Source: Micromonospora pattaloongensis (GTDB lineage Bacteria > Actinomycetota > Actinomycetes > Mycobacteriales > Micromonosporaceae). From it: a stretch of DNA of 64,000 nt. The notes under the pieces were generated by a model that was not told where the DNA came from, ran no database searches, and saw nothing but the letters and a program-made list of their open reading frames with translations. Made by a program: the position numbers and the translations under genes. Positions 4,508 to 37,165 of this stretch are shown in pieces (within the stretch, counting starts at the first letter, position 1; each line of letters opens with the position of its first letter). Location: assembly GCF_900107255.1 (NCBI RefSeq), contig NZ_FNPH01000001.1:1-64000 (forward strand), read 5' to 3'.

Positions 4508-4699
4508 CTACGGCCGGGGCGCGACCTCGGCGACGAAGGCCCGCCACGCGACCGGGCCGAACGTCAGCACGGGCCCCGGTCGGTCCTTGGAGTCGCGCAC
4601 CAGCACGACACCGGGCAGGTTGTCGGCCACCTCGACGCAGGATCCCCCGTTGTTGCCGCTGCGCGTGCTCGTGCGCCACTCGGCGCCGGTCAGGTCCAT
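4508..4699 (-). CDS. DUF397 domain protein, 63 aa
   Basis: Small DUF397 protein with the family hallmarks EWRTSTRSGNNGGSCVEVA near the start and an AWRAFVAEV end. DUF397 proteins are encoded beside Scr1-type XRE regulators across actinobacteria. In Streptomyces such pairs (for example Scr1/Scr2 and relatives of AbaA ORFs) affect antibiotic production and differentiation, and the DUF397 protein is thought to modulate the regulator. The ATG lies 10 nt inside the 3' end of the upstream regulator gene, which indicates translational coupling. Confidence 0.9.
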   Translation of the reverse strand: MDLTGAEWRTSTRSGNNGGSCVEVADNLPGVVLVRDSKDRPGPVLTFGPVAWRAFVAEVAPRP

Positions 4700-5487
4700 G
4701 ATGTCGCCGCTTTCCTGATGAGCTCCAGGGACTGTTGCCGCGAGAGCGCGTCGCCACGGATTCGCTCCCATCGACATTCGAGCATAGCAATATCGTCGGC
4801 GCGATCGACTATCTGCGCCGCTAGCTGCCCGTCCGCGTGCGCCACCCGCCCGCCATCCGGGGTCTCCGCGATGATGAAGCCTCCGCCGAAGCCCGGATAC
4901 ATGCCGGTGTCGGCGGGCACAACGTGCACCTGCACGTTCGGCAGCTCGGCGCAGCGCGCCAGATGCTCCAGCTGCGCGGCCATCAGTCCGGCGTCGTGAT
5001 AGACGTGCCGCCGCAGCACCGCCTCGTCGAGCACCACGACCAGCAGCGGCGGCCGCTCCCGGCTCAGCACCTCCTGCCGGCCGAGCCGCGACGCCACGAG
5101 CTTCTCGACCTCCTCGGCGGTCAGTAGTTCGCCAGCGAGCGTCGCCCGCGCGTACGCCTCGGTCTGGAGCAGGCCCGGCACCCACGCCGGCTCGAACCAC
5201 CGCAGCGATGACGCCTCGCGCTCGATCTCGATCCACTCGCGCAGCCACGGCGGGGCGCTGTCCAGGCTGGCGAGCCGCTCCAGCAGTCGCGTGAAGATCC
5301 CGCCGGTGTCGAGCGCCTCGTCGAGCGCCGCCACGTACTCCGGTTTGGGCGCGCGCTGCCCGGTCTCCACCGCGCTCACGTGCGACCCCGAATAATTGAT
5401 CATCTTTCCGAGGTCGTCCTGATTCAGGCCACGCCGCACGCGCGCCGCACGTAATTCGCCGATCAGGAAATCCGCCGCGTTCCCCAC
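4690..5487 (-). CDS. Scr1-type XRE family transcriptional regulator, 265 aa
   Basis: N-terminal helix-turn-helix of Cro/CI type (about residues 8-62, RVRRGLNQDDLGKMINYSGS) followed by the DUF5753 domain typical of Scr1-like regulators, with the landmark FEPAWVPGLLQTEAYARA. The GTG at 5487 is preferred because GAGGAAA precedes it at good spacing; an in-frame GTG at 5505 is possible. It overlaps the DUF397 gene by 10 nt and diverges from two small Cys/Trp proteins. The palindromes in the intergenic region at 5561-5590 are candidate autoregulatory operators. Confidence 0.9.
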   Translation of the reverse strand: MGNAADFLIGELRAARVRRGLNQDDLGKMINYSGSHVSAVETGQRAPKPEYVAALDEALDTGGIFTRLLERLASLDSAPPWLREWIEIEREASSLRWFEPAWVPGLLQTEAYARATLAGELLTAEEVEKLVASRLGRQEVLSRERPPLLVVVLDEAVLRRHVYHDAGLMAAQLEHLARCAELPNVQVHVVPADTGMYPGFGGGFIIAETPDGGRVAHADGQLAAQIVDRADDIAMLECRWERIRGDALSRQQSLELIRKAATSWT

Positions 5488-5560
5488 GATTTCCTCAGCC
5501 TCCACACAGTCGCCGTCGCCGATTCCACGCCGTCGGCCGATCGCCGCCGGGAGCCGCCCC

Positions 5561-5664: not shown

Positions 5665-5946
5665 ATGCGACAACCGGAGCCCATTCGGTACGCCCCACAC
5701 CACCGTCGCGACTGGCGCCGATTCGGACGGCGCTGCATCTGCGGCCTCCGCTGGCCGTGCCCGGACCGGATCTACCGGCCGCGACTCTCCCGCCGCACGG
5801 TCGCCGCGGTCGACGATGAGCTGAGTGAGCGCATCCGCCGCGCGACCGCGTGGAACGCGCCGACGATCGCGTACCCGCGGGTCGGCGATCCGGGGCGACT
5901 GACGCCGGCCCAGGAGTTCCGGGCGAACGCCGGCCGGCGCTGGTGA
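5665..5946 (+). CDS. small Cys/Trp-motif protein, 93 aa
   Basis: Not a named family I recognise. A strong GGAGGAAATAC Shine-Dalgarno sequence precedes the ATG. The product is Arg-rich with RRCICGLRWPCPDR at about residues 22-35, a CxC-x4-WPC arrangement that could bind a metal or form disulfides. The following gene has a variant of the same motif and overlaps this one by 4 nt. It diverges from the XRE/DUF397 pair, and genes of this type are often seen next to such pairs in Micromonosporaceae, so a functional link is plausible. Confidence 0.6.
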   Translation: MRQPEPIRYAPHHRRDWRRFGRRCICGLRWPCPDRIYRPRLSRRTVAAVDDELSERIRRATAWNAPTIAYPRVGDPGRLTPAQEFRANAGRRW

Positions 5947-6215
5947 CCCGCGATCGCCCCCGCGCCGGAGCGCCACACGGGCCGGACCGCCCGTCGTGGC
6001 GGTGCCGCGCCTGCGCGCACCCGTGGCCGTGCGGTCCGGCGAAGCTCGACCTGGTCCGGACGTACGCCGGCGATCCGGTCGGGCTTTGCGTCTATCTCTG
6101 CGCGCAACTGCACGACGCCGTGGCCGACCTCTGCGCCGCCGACCCCGCCGGGCAACCCGACGCCGGCGCGCTCTTCACCCGGTTCATCGGCTGGGCACTC
6201 CGCCGCCGCGACTGA
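5943..6215 (+). CDS. small Cys/Trp-motif protein, 90 aa
   Basis: The GTG at 5943 overlaps the stop of the preceding gene (GTGA). The product carries WRCRACAHPWPC at about residues 18-29, a CxxC-x4-C pattern with the same Trp-Pro-Cys ending as its upstream neighbour. A helical segment containing LCVYLCAQLHDAVADLC follows, with three more Cys. Likely a small zinc-binding or thiol-containing cytosolic protein; function unknown. Tandem placement and the shared motif suggest the two products are paralogues or partners. Confidence 0.6.
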   Translation: MTRDRPRAGAPHGPDRPSWRCRACAHPWPCGPAKLDLVRTYAGDPVGLCVYLCAQLHDAVADLCAADPAGQPDAGALFTRFIGWALRRRD

Positions 6216-6225
6216 CTCTCGCGCG

Positions 6226-6468
6226 GCGCCTTTGCTCTGCTTACCCGGAGGAAACAGCAGCCCGCCCGGACAGCAGCCCCGCCCGGACAGCAGCCCCGCC
6301 CGGACAACCGCACGGCCGGAATACCGGAGGTGAGCGTTTCCTATAGGTAAGCAAAGCAAAGGCGCGGCAACAGACATCCCCGCCCGGCCAACCGCGCGGT
6401 CGGCATATCGGAGGTGAGCGTTTCCTATGGGTAAGCAGAGCAAAGGCGCGGCAACAGACATCCCCGCC
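6226..6468. repeat. inverted and direct repeat cluster
   Basis: Three elements overlap here. An 84-nt unit is repeated directly (6305-6388 and 6389-6468, with few substitutions). A 30-nt arm at 6226-6255 (GCGCCTTTGCTCTGCTTACC...) is the reverse complement of 6420-6449 with two mismatches, and of 6336-6365 with about four. Between the arms lie three tandem copies of a 16-17-nt CAGCAGCCCCGCCCGGA unit. No transposase is present. This resembles a REP- or MITE-like palindromic cluster. It also fills the 301-nt gap between the small protein and the enoyl-CoA hydratase gene. Confidence 0.8.
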
Positions 6469-6516: not shown

Positions 6517-7290
6517 TTAGCGGCCGGTGAAGTCCGGCTTGCGCTTCTCGACGAACGCGGTCATGCCCTCGCGCTTGTCCTCGGTGGCGAACAGCCCGGC
6601 GAAGAGCTGGCTCTCCCAGGCCAGGCCCGAGGCGAGATCCAGCTCCAGGCCGCCGTCGACCGCCAGCTTCGCGGCGCGCAGCGCCTGCGCCGGCCCGTTG
6701 ACGTACGGCCCCACCAGCGCGACCGCCGCGTCGTAGACCTCGGCCGCCGGCACCACGCGGTCGGCGAGCCCGATCCGGAGCGCCTCCTCGGCGTCGACCA
6801 TCCGCCCGGAGAAGATCAGATCCTTGGCGCGGGCCGGCCCGACCAGCCGGGCCAGCCGCTGGGTGCCGCCGGCGCCGGGAATGATGCCGAGCTTGATCTC
6901 CGGTTGGCCGAGCTTGGCGTCGTCCGCCACGACCCGCCAGTCGCACGCCAACGCCAGCTCGCAGCCGCCGCCGAGCGCGTACCCGGTGATCGCCGCGACC
7001 ACGGGCTTCGGGATGCGGGCGATCGCGTCGAAGGCGCTGGAGAGGTGCGCGGCCCGCGCCGACATGTCCACGTACGACATGTCGGCCATCTCCTTGATGT
7101 CCGCGCCGGCCGCGAAGACCTTCTCGCCGCCGTACACGATCACCGCGCGGACCTCGGGGTCGGCGCCGGTCTGCGCGGCCGCGGCGCGCAACCCCTCCTG
7201 CACCTGCGTGTTCAGCGCGTTCATCGGCGGCCGCTCCAGCCGGATCGTCGCGATGCCGTCGTTGATCTCCACGCGCACGAAGTCGCCCAC
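6517..7290 (-). CDS. enoyl-CoA hydratase (crotonase family), 257 aa
   Basis: Crotonase-fold enzyme hydrating trans-2-enoyl-CoA in fatty-acid or amino-acid degradation. The oxyanion-hole segments are KVFAAGADI and GYALGGGCELALACD. Both catalytic Glu residues of hydratases are present, one in GGGCELA and one in GQPEIKLG. The length is typical of the EchA8/FadB1-like group. The start is set at the GTG at 7290, which has GGAGGT six nucleotides upstream; a TTG at 7320 would add ten residues. The gene stands alone and diverges from a DUF6232 gene. Confidence 0.9.
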   Translation of the reverse strand: MGDFVRVEINDGIATIRLERPPMNALNTQVQEGLRAAAAQTGADPEVRAVIVYGGEKVFAAGADIKEMADMSYVDMSARAAHLSSAFDAIARIPKPVVAAITGYALGGGCELALACDWRVVADDAKLGQPEIKLGIIPGAGGTQRLARLVGPARAKDLIFSGRMVDAEEALRIGLADRVVPAAEVYDAAVALVGPYVNGPAQALRAAKLAVDGGLELDLASGLAWESQLFAGLFATEDKREGMTAFVEKRKPDFTGR

Positions 7291-7379
7291 GCCCACACCT
7301 CCACGTTGAAGTTCCGGCAAAGACTACGACGGCCGCGGATGGGTAAGTAACCTGGTGCCAGTTCGACGAGGACAGCGAG

Positions 7380-7931: not shown

Positions 7932-8633
7932 ATGTTCATGGTGCTTCCCATCCCCCGACCCGGCATGGTCGTCGACCTGGCACGGGCCGCCGTCGGCCAG
8001 GCGCTGACAACCGCGGCCGCCCTCGCCGCGCTCCCCGGCCGCGCGTTCACCGTCCTCGACGAGATCGAGGCGTTGGTCAAGCGGATCAACGGGGTGGTGG
8101 ACCGCGCCGAGGTGCTGCTCACCCGGGCCGACGTCGTGGTCGAGGACGCCGAGGAAGCGGCGGTCCGGGTCGCGGCGATCGCGACCGCGGCGACCGCCGC
8201 GGTCGAGGAGGCCACCCGGATGGCGGCCGCGGTGGCGGTCGTGGTCACGAACGCGGAACAGGTCGCCGCCGAGGCGGGCACGCTGGTCGCCGGCGGCACG
8301 GAGCTGGCCGATCAGGCCCGGCAACTGCTGTCGGCGTACGAGCCGACGCTGCGGCGGGCCGCCCCGATGGCGGGACGGTTCGTCGAGCAGCTCACGCCGG
8401 AGGAGGTCGACGCGGCGATCCGGCTCGTCGACGAACTGCCGGCACTGACCCGGCACATCACCGCGGACGTACTGCCGATCCTCGCCACCCTGGACCGGGT
8501 CGGCCCGGACATCCACGAGCTGCTGGAGGTCACCCGCGACCTGCGGCTCGCCGTCGCCGGCATCCCCGGCCTGCAGCGGCTGATCCGCCGGGGTGAGGAC
8601 CGGCTCGCCGACGAGGATGCCGCGTCGCGTTGA
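7932..8633 (+). CDS. conserved hypothetical coiled-coil protein, 233 aa
   Basis: Long helical protein without a signal peptide. A short Pro-containing N-terminus is followed by Ala/Val/Glu heptad-rich helices (about 20-140) with no hydrophobic segment long and pure enough to call transmembrane, then a second helical half. Similar proteins are widespread in Micromonosporaceae and Streptomyces without an assigned role. The composition resembles apolipoprotein- or methyl-accepting-like coiled coils. An internal ATG at 7938 is an alternative start. The stop codon lies inside the first copy of a 16-nt tandem repeat. Confidence 0.65.
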   Translation: MFMVLPIPRPGMVVDLARAAVGQALTTAAALAALPGRAFTVLDEIEALVKRINGVVDRAEVLLTRADVVVEDAEEAAVRVAAIATAATAAVEEATRMAAAVAVVVTNAEQVAAEAGTLVAGGTELADQARQLLSAYEPTLRRAAPMAGRFVEQLTPEEVDAAIRLVDELPALTRHITADVLPILATLDRVGPDIHELLEVTRDLRLAVAGIPGLQRLIRRGEDRLADEDAASR

Positions 8634-8672
8634 TCAGGGGCCGCGTTGATCAGGGGCCGCGTTAATCAGGGG
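8626..8672. repeat. 16-nt tandem repeat, three copies, containing TGATCA
   Basis: CGCGTTGATCAGGGGC occurs at 8626-8641 and 8642-8657, and with one change (TTAATCA) at 8658-8672. The array spans the convergent 3' ends of the coiled-coil gene and the ribokinase gene and supplies both stop codons. It shares the TGATCA core with other intergenic palindromes in the window. Confidence 0.85.
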
Positions 8673-36984: not shown

Positions 36985-37165
36985 CCCGGCGCTGCCGAAT
37001 CGTCGCCCGCCGCCACAGAGAGTCGCACGACGGCGCCCGCGGGCATACGGCGAACCGGGGACCCACCTTGCACCATCGGGGTGAATCCGCGCCCGGCGCG
37101 CGGTAGGGCGATCTTTCCCGCCCGAATCCGTCAGCTAACCCGGTAGGCGGCCAGGGGAAGAAAGG
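36985..37165 (+). promoter_or_regulatory. c-di-AMP riboswitch (ydaO/yuaA class)
   Basis: Conserved blocks of the actinobacterial ydaO class appear in order: CTGCCGAATCGTC, GAACCGGGGACCCACC, CATCGGGGTGAATCCGCGCC, then CCGCCCGAATCCGTCAGC, TAACCCGGTAGGCGG and GGGGAAGAAAGGTTCTGCC. It lies directly upstream of an NlpC/P60 wall hydrolase gene, the normal target of this riboswitch in actinobacteria, where c-di-AMP usually turns expression off. Boundaries are approximate. Confidence 0.9.

Follow-up and report, generated by a model that had tools for sequence, protein, structure and literature searches.

A dispersed palindrome family and a small XRE-type regulator as a candidate protein-plus-site system in the Micromonosporaceae

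The window analyzed here, a stretch of 64,000 nucleotides of the genome of Micromonospora pattaloongensis, contains a cluster of inverted and direct repeats in the vicinity of XRE/DUF5753 and DUF397 genes, flanked on either side by convergent genes, a small ORF and an enoyl-CoA hydratase gene (Table 1). A sequence-only reading of this DNA had described a 30-nt word present once in one orientation and twice in the other, an 84-nt direct repeat, and a 16-17-nt array between the arms, at the end of an XRE/DUF397 island, and each of these features was recovered. The arms measure 33 nt, one on the plus and two on the minus strand, and the left arm is 91% complementary to the inverted arm in the second copy of the duplication and 85% complementary to that in the first, where the arm word (6346-6360) carries one mismatch in the core. 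The two copies of the direct repeat are 90% identical, and the array comprises 3.2 copies of a 17-nt period. A 15-nt arm word is matched three times in the window with up to two mismatches, against 0.03 expected, and the cluster region, as single-stranded DNA, folds 4.6 s.d. below shuffles. Elsewhere in the window, a second tandem array with a period of 16 (CGCGTTGATCAGGGGC) and 2.9 copies is found at 8626-8672, and a c-di-AMP (ydaO/yuaA) riboswitch at 37024-37164 (Rfam RF00379, 74.5 bits).

Table 1. Coordinates of the repeat cluster and the neighboring genes in the window.
Feature	Position	Strand	Remarks
Left arm of the palindrome	6223..6255	+	14-nt word TTTGCTCTGCTTAC at 6231-6244
17-nt tandem array, palindrome interior	6254..6306	+	Missing from the 83-nt copies listed
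84-nt tandem duplication, copy 1 (right half of the palindrome)	6291..6374	+	Right arm 6336-6368, one core mismatch
84-nt duplication, copy 2	6375..6458	+	Right arm 6420-6452, core intact
Likely flanking ORF, oriented toward the palindrome	5943..6215	+	No Pfam match
Enoyl-CoA hydratase (ECH_1) gene, oriented toward the palindrome	6517..7296	-
XRE/DUF5753 gene	4690-5505
DUF397 gene	4508-4699

In the host genome, a 17-nt arm word has 23 matches with up to three mismatches (5 for the reversed-pattern control), and matches with at most one mismatch are found at 11 loci. Seven of these approximately 11 loci are hairpins of 83 nt (82 nt in one case), with the arm starts 65 or 66 nt apart. As the prevailing form in this genome is a palindrome of 82-83 nt, the cluster in the window represents a rearranged member of a dispersed palindrome family, with an expanded interior and a duplicated right half. 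The possibility that the word is unique to this locus, which would have refuted the sequence-only reading, was not borne out, as the word is dispersed in its own genome and, in the form of a single 14-nt arm, is present in 73 of the 354 genomes of the family (0 in the control).

Each arm contains an asymmetric site, about 14 bp in length and composed of a fixed 10-nt core, TTTGCTCTGC, followed by four lineage-specific bases, which include the types TTAC, TTCA, TGCA, TGCC, ACCC, ATCC, AGCC, ACAC, GCAC, and TTCC, among others. The core is usually preceded by C, as in 72 of 81 exact instances at the loci of the partner gene described below and in 144 of 153 at other loci. When the last four nucleotides are relaxed, pairs of the fixed core (TTTGCTCTGC...GCAGAGCAAA, with a spacer of 31-61) are found in 148 of the 354 family genomes (reversed-pattern control 0), and a palindrome or arm is present in 153. 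Exact TTAC-type pairs occur in 5 of 61 genomes, counting that of M. pattaloongensis itself. A collection of named genomes yielded 27 stretches with the palindrome, from Rugosimonospora, Catenuloplanes, Micromonospora, Actinoplanes, a Micromonosporaceae MAG, and Actinoallomurus soli, the only species from outside the family. Contigs or loci shared with these stretches are the basis for the genus names Catenuloplanes, Rugosimonospora, and Actinoplanes given to genomes below. A phage origin was rejected, since exact TTAC-type pairs (spacer 30-60) are missing from the viral contigs, where the four matches to the core pattern are unlike the palindromes in their interior and G+C content (38-54%).

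The palindromes are predicted to fold into strong hairpins. Three canonical copies from the host genome, as single-stranded DNA, fold 7.9-10.1 s.d. below shuffles, and single copies taken from G020 and G008 fold 7.5 and 6.7 s.d. below, respectively. Among the gene-linked palindromes, 16 have the same length; in these, 89.4% of the cells pair, and 36 cells have changed on both sides of the stem, against 16.8 +- 3.4 in shuffles (0/500). Template switching within palindromes could also produce matched arms, and the covariation alone is thus no proof of selection on pairing; this process does not explain the fixed core found across loci and genera.

The palindrome family is dispersed and mostly intergenic. 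Contexts defined by our own codon-usage gene caller, independently of the annotation, place 37 of 80 clusters between tandem genes, 30 between convergent and 7 between divergent genes, 2 inside genes, and 4 at edges. The cluster in the window was counted as tandem, as a stricter setting of the caller missed the small ORF. The element-free intergenic gaps of at least 100 bp comprise 39 tandem, 37 divergent, and 6 convergent cases, a background biased toward divergent gaps, so that 1:1 is the fairer null for the 30 convergent and 7 divergent placements. A comparison of 50 flanking proteins with Pfam revealed no recurring gene family (ECH_1 and MFS_1 were found twice, response-regulator domains three times). 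Some loci have a different architecture, such as the direct array of eight exact arms with a 23-nt period in G149 (C1:9597419-9597593), the arrays of L183 and L184 in G147, one with a left arm and six right arms and the other with five exact right arms, and L099 (2001-2954), where about 885 bp with no called gene separate the arms and a second, AT-richer palindrome is visible by eye.

A candidate partner emerged from the comparison of the proteins in the flanks of the elements. When 261 flanking proteins were compared pairwise, orthologous loci were recovered, and the same small XRE-type gene was found beside elements in the host genome, Rugosimonospora, and Catenuloplanes. This gene is present in 130 of the 354 family genomes at E<=1e-20, with a second match only in G134 and G017 (132 in total). 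The palindrome or arm is found together with the gene in 126 genomes, the palindrome alone in 27, the gene alone in 4, and neither in 197 (Fisher p 1e-62, uncorrected for relatedness, which means that the p-values overstate the independence of the genomes). The corresponding counts are 102, 19, 1, and 38 in genus g4, taken as Micromonospora, and 24, 8, 3, and 159 outside it. The four genomes with the gene alone do have core arms upstream of it, just one arm in the case of G026. Genus g29 (Actinoplanes, by its member G122) comprises 67 genomes, of which 2 have the gene and 3 the TTAC arm, with two in common.

The association extends to the position of the sites. Fifty loci of the gene were inspected, the 30 best matches and 20 from other genera, out of the 132 in 130 genomes (in L262 the gene is a second copy, and L265 starts at the end of a contig). 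In 41 of these 50, the 700 bp upstream of the gene contain a core pair, and a DnaA box (consensus TTRTCCACA) is found near the start in 42, against 0.14 expected. This box occurs in only 2 of 78 neighborhoods of the elements, both of them at the XRE gene. At three further Catenuloplanes loci, the gene is preceded by the core pair at a distance of about 145-230 bp but lacks the box, and in Actinoallomurus soli, the gene (E 6e-60) is preceded by a TCAC-type palindrome, again with no box; these missing boxes weigh against the proposed partnership. The upstream neighbor is an ALAD/hemB-type gene in 24 of 30 loci, and the other six still keep the palindrome. This positional conservation is not unique to the XRE gene, given that a copy within an RlmA-like gene is likewise kept in many species, which counts against the proposed partnership.

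The four lineage-specific bases are identical in both arms in 33 of 38 gene-linked palindromes (pairs 20-130 nt apart), against 9.5 in shuffles. In most comparable genomes, the common type, as judged by eye from a partial listing, is that of the copy upstream of the partner gene. G136 and G065 do not match and G126 is mixed, which weighs against the proposal. A long array of GCTCTGCGCAC-like half-sites precedes the gene at L247 of G126 (C58, about 28.7-29.3 kb).

In four Catenuloplanes genomes of one or two contigs each, the loci are crowded around the XRE gene, with 14 of 16, 12 of 22, 15 of 27, and 20 of 37 lying within 250 kb of it, its own locus excluded, where about 5% would be expected. 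These genomes are syntenic, and count as a single case. No crowding was seen in G008 or in the host genome, which counts against the proposal. Also unfavorable to the partnership are the 27 genomes with a palindrome or arm that have no homologue at E<=1e-20, and the presence of 15 and 9 pairs in G137 and G143, and 13 arms in G022, where only weaker XRE relatives were found. Remnants of the gene are likely in 5 of these 27 genomes, with an internal deletion in G271, fragments beside hemB in G205, G279, and G282, and a sequence in two frames in G370, although those of G279 and G282 rest on only 25-32 matched residues.

The XRE protein has about 168 aa, with an HTH_3/HTH_31 domain and a C-terminal part that has no Pfam match. 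This part, from residue 86, includes 28 of the 33 invariant residues of an alignment of 24 sequences, while the relatives in the PDB, judged from the best 60 of 69, match only the HTH part. Paralogues with a similar C-terminal motif are found in element-free genomes, and 12 of 13 further loci checked have no core arm (the other, L288, is the G205 remnant), so that this motif is not specific to the system. No match to the protein was found on plasmids or phages at E 1e-5, and a single-sequence AlphaFold2 model (mean pLDDT 56) was not used.

Taken at a probability of roughly 60%, the dispersed palindromes and the small XRE-type regulator form a previously undescribed protein-plus-site system, in which the regulator, to judge from co-occurrence and position, is likely to be the partner of the palindromes. 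The protein would bind the arm sites, regulating its own gene through the palindrome in front of it and occupying the dispersed copies, most of which lie behind or between genes, where the inverted site pairs could form road-blocks or insulators to transcription from either direction. The copies would multiply through some copying step and local tandem duplication, as in the window, and the population of sites would persist along with the gene. The linkage between the two may derive from one ancestral association. The near-identical interiors at unrelated sites call for a copying enzyme, which is perhaps not supplied by the XRE protein.

The history of the copies bears on this proposal and also on the possibility, which we consider unlikely, of a purely mobile REPIN- or MITE-like palindrome moved by a transposase, with an ancient copy in front of the XRE gene accounting for the link between them. 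Two identical and several near-identical copies are found in unrelated flanks, and interiors are similar within a lineage, as a mobile palindrome would predict. In genus g4, a palindrome lies in frame within an RlmA-like methyltransferase gene (L119:1948-2014, loci L186-L215), with codons that look rare for high-GC DNA. Among the 30 best orthologues of this gene from 160 genomes, 20 have recognizable arms, two have a degraded insert, and eight have none, in keeping with a mobile palindrome, and the arms have changed in pairs (TTCC/GGAA, ACCC/GGGT, and AGCC/GGCT). No target-site duplication was apparent by eye at the near-identical copies in unrelated flanks, nor at an element-free orthologous site or the RlmA-like gene, these sites being old or few.

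What a mobile palindrome does not predict is the strong co-occurrence with the XRE gene, the crowding around it, or the exact arms that persist at old sites with diverged surroundings. In three largely collinear Catenuloplanes genomes (G148 and G150 about 90-95% identical across matched blocks, with flanks mostly 80-94% identical to those of G147), 138 comparisons were made of arms that are exact in one genome. In 67 of these, all 14 letters of the arm are unchanged in the aligned orthologue, in 7 there are 12 or 13 matching letters, and in the others the arm is missing or misaligned, while the other aligned letters of these segments are 52-67% identical. The count is based on 64 directed comparisons, in which most pairs were entered both ways, and excludes loci without both flanks on one stretch, left-flank identity below 85%, flank matches ending far from the element, and segments of more than 3 kb. 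At one locus, the element is present in G147 and G150 and missing in G148, where it has likely been lost, given its presence in the other two. Overall, the near-identical copies in unrelated flanks and the exact arms at orthologous sites indicate that copies spread and that many old ones keep their arms.

The likeness to REP/BIME or MITE elements suggested by the sequence-only reading holds for the dispersed, mostly intergenic palindromic repeats, but not for a Y1/RAYT partner. A profile search of 22 genomes for PF01797, the only transposase profile scanned, found none in any of the five Catenuloplanes genomes, G122, or G008 (the carriers with no match being G122, G147, G148, G006, G149, G150, and G008), so that seven of the eight most arm-rich genomes lack a full match, and a RAYT partner is not supported. 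Among the carriers, G020 (Rugosimonospora) yielded a full match and G304 three matches, with two fragments at contig ends in the host genome; the element-free G028, G124, and G153 also have matches. MITEs are short, with inverted ends and copies in unrelated flanks, features shared by these palindromes, which differ in showing no target duplication by eye and, within the scope of that single profile, no parent transposon with the same ends. The palindromic elements of Rickettsia lie in frame inside coding sequences, which resembles the copy in the RlmA-like gene, whereas the present family is mostly intergenic and has a linked partner gene.

A close parallel is offered by the REPIN-RAYT systems, which are described as scattered inverted palindromes that for the most part lie between genes or behind them and are locally amplified, with a single-copy partner gene beside the repeats, and more repeats where the partner is present (PMC8049555, PMC3733652). 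The present family is alike in its dispersed inverted palindromes, local amplification, and greater number of repeats in genomes with the likely partner, and, in form, in a linked gene that has a second match in only 2 of 130 genomes. Its pairs are also foldable, intergenic, and rarely placed between divergent genes, as in REPINs. It differs in that the gene linked to the repeats, and likely partner, encodes an XRE HTH protein rather than a Y1 tyrosine transposase, and in that the arms consist of the fixed core and the lineage-specific bases, with no GTAG or CGTC tag seen on inspection of consensus sequences for the arms and flanks in six groups.

The sites may, alternatively, organize the chromosome or be linked to replication, much as matS or Noc sites do, with the protein expressed under DnaA control. 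This is rather improbable, even though the DnaA boxes in the 42 promoters and the dense regional domain of Catenuloplanes are consistent with such a role. The domain surrounds the XRE gene, 0.55-0.58 Mb from parS, with only 0, 0, 4, and 2 loci lying within 250 kb of parS in the four genomes, the sites are scattered in G008, and the three Catenuloplanes promoters without a box argue in the same direction. Sites of an origin or terminus macrodomain were rejected on the position of this cluster, and identity with parS/ParB on the different sequence of the palindrome and the distance of the parS cluster from the partner gene. Least probable of all are ordinary two-way RNA terminators or stabilizing hairpins with no cognate protein, with which the strong hairpins, stem covariation, and excess of convergent over divergent placements would agree, but which would not need a 10-nt core common to several genera, and which fit poorly with the lack, by eye, of a T tract at the foot of the hairpin and with a copy (L081) directly behind what appears, also by eye, to be an ordinary intrinsic terminator.

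A more specific, and less probable, version of the protein-plus-site system is a host-chromosome "stoperator" network, in which an XRE protein, controlled by DnaA in many of the genera, would read the arms through two domains and block transcription in both directions, with a REPIN-like spread of the sites. The conserved C-terminal domain would read the fixed core and the variable HTH the four lineage-specific bases. The lack of a DnaA box at the three Catenuloplanes loci slightly lowers the odds of this version. The stoperators of cluster A mycobacteriophages are described as asymmetric 13-bp sites in promoter regions and short intergenic spaces throughout the genome, recognized in L5 by a protein of 183 residues that combines an N-terminal HTH with a C-terminal domain, and the repressors read these asymmetric sites with two domains (PMC9283540). 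The present system is similar in its dispersed asymmetric sites, which also precede the HTH gene, and in its small protein, where the HTH is N-terminal and a C-terminal part follows, while the division into fixed core and variable bases, and into conserved C-terminal part and variable HTH, recalls the two-domain reading of the sites. It is unlike the stoperators in being found on host chromosomes of many genera rather than in phages, and in its mostly inverted pairs inside palindromes, rather than single, transcription-oriented sites. The likeness is one of layout.

On present evidence, the system belongs to neither the REPINs nor the stoperators. When open-access full text was searched with the TTAC-type arm word, a variant of it, and the complements of both, the one paper recovered was an unrelated one on Arabidopsis, the top titles of topic searches contained no account of such palindromes, and within this open-access scope, no printed description was found of a REPIN-like population tied to an XRE regulator. 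The known REPIN-like populations are paired with Y1 transposases, and a plain HTH protein as partner would represent a second route by which short palindromes persist. Such a regulator would make the benefit of these palindromes to bacterial chromosomes testable, and the lineage-specific 4-nt types would provide natural specificity swaps.
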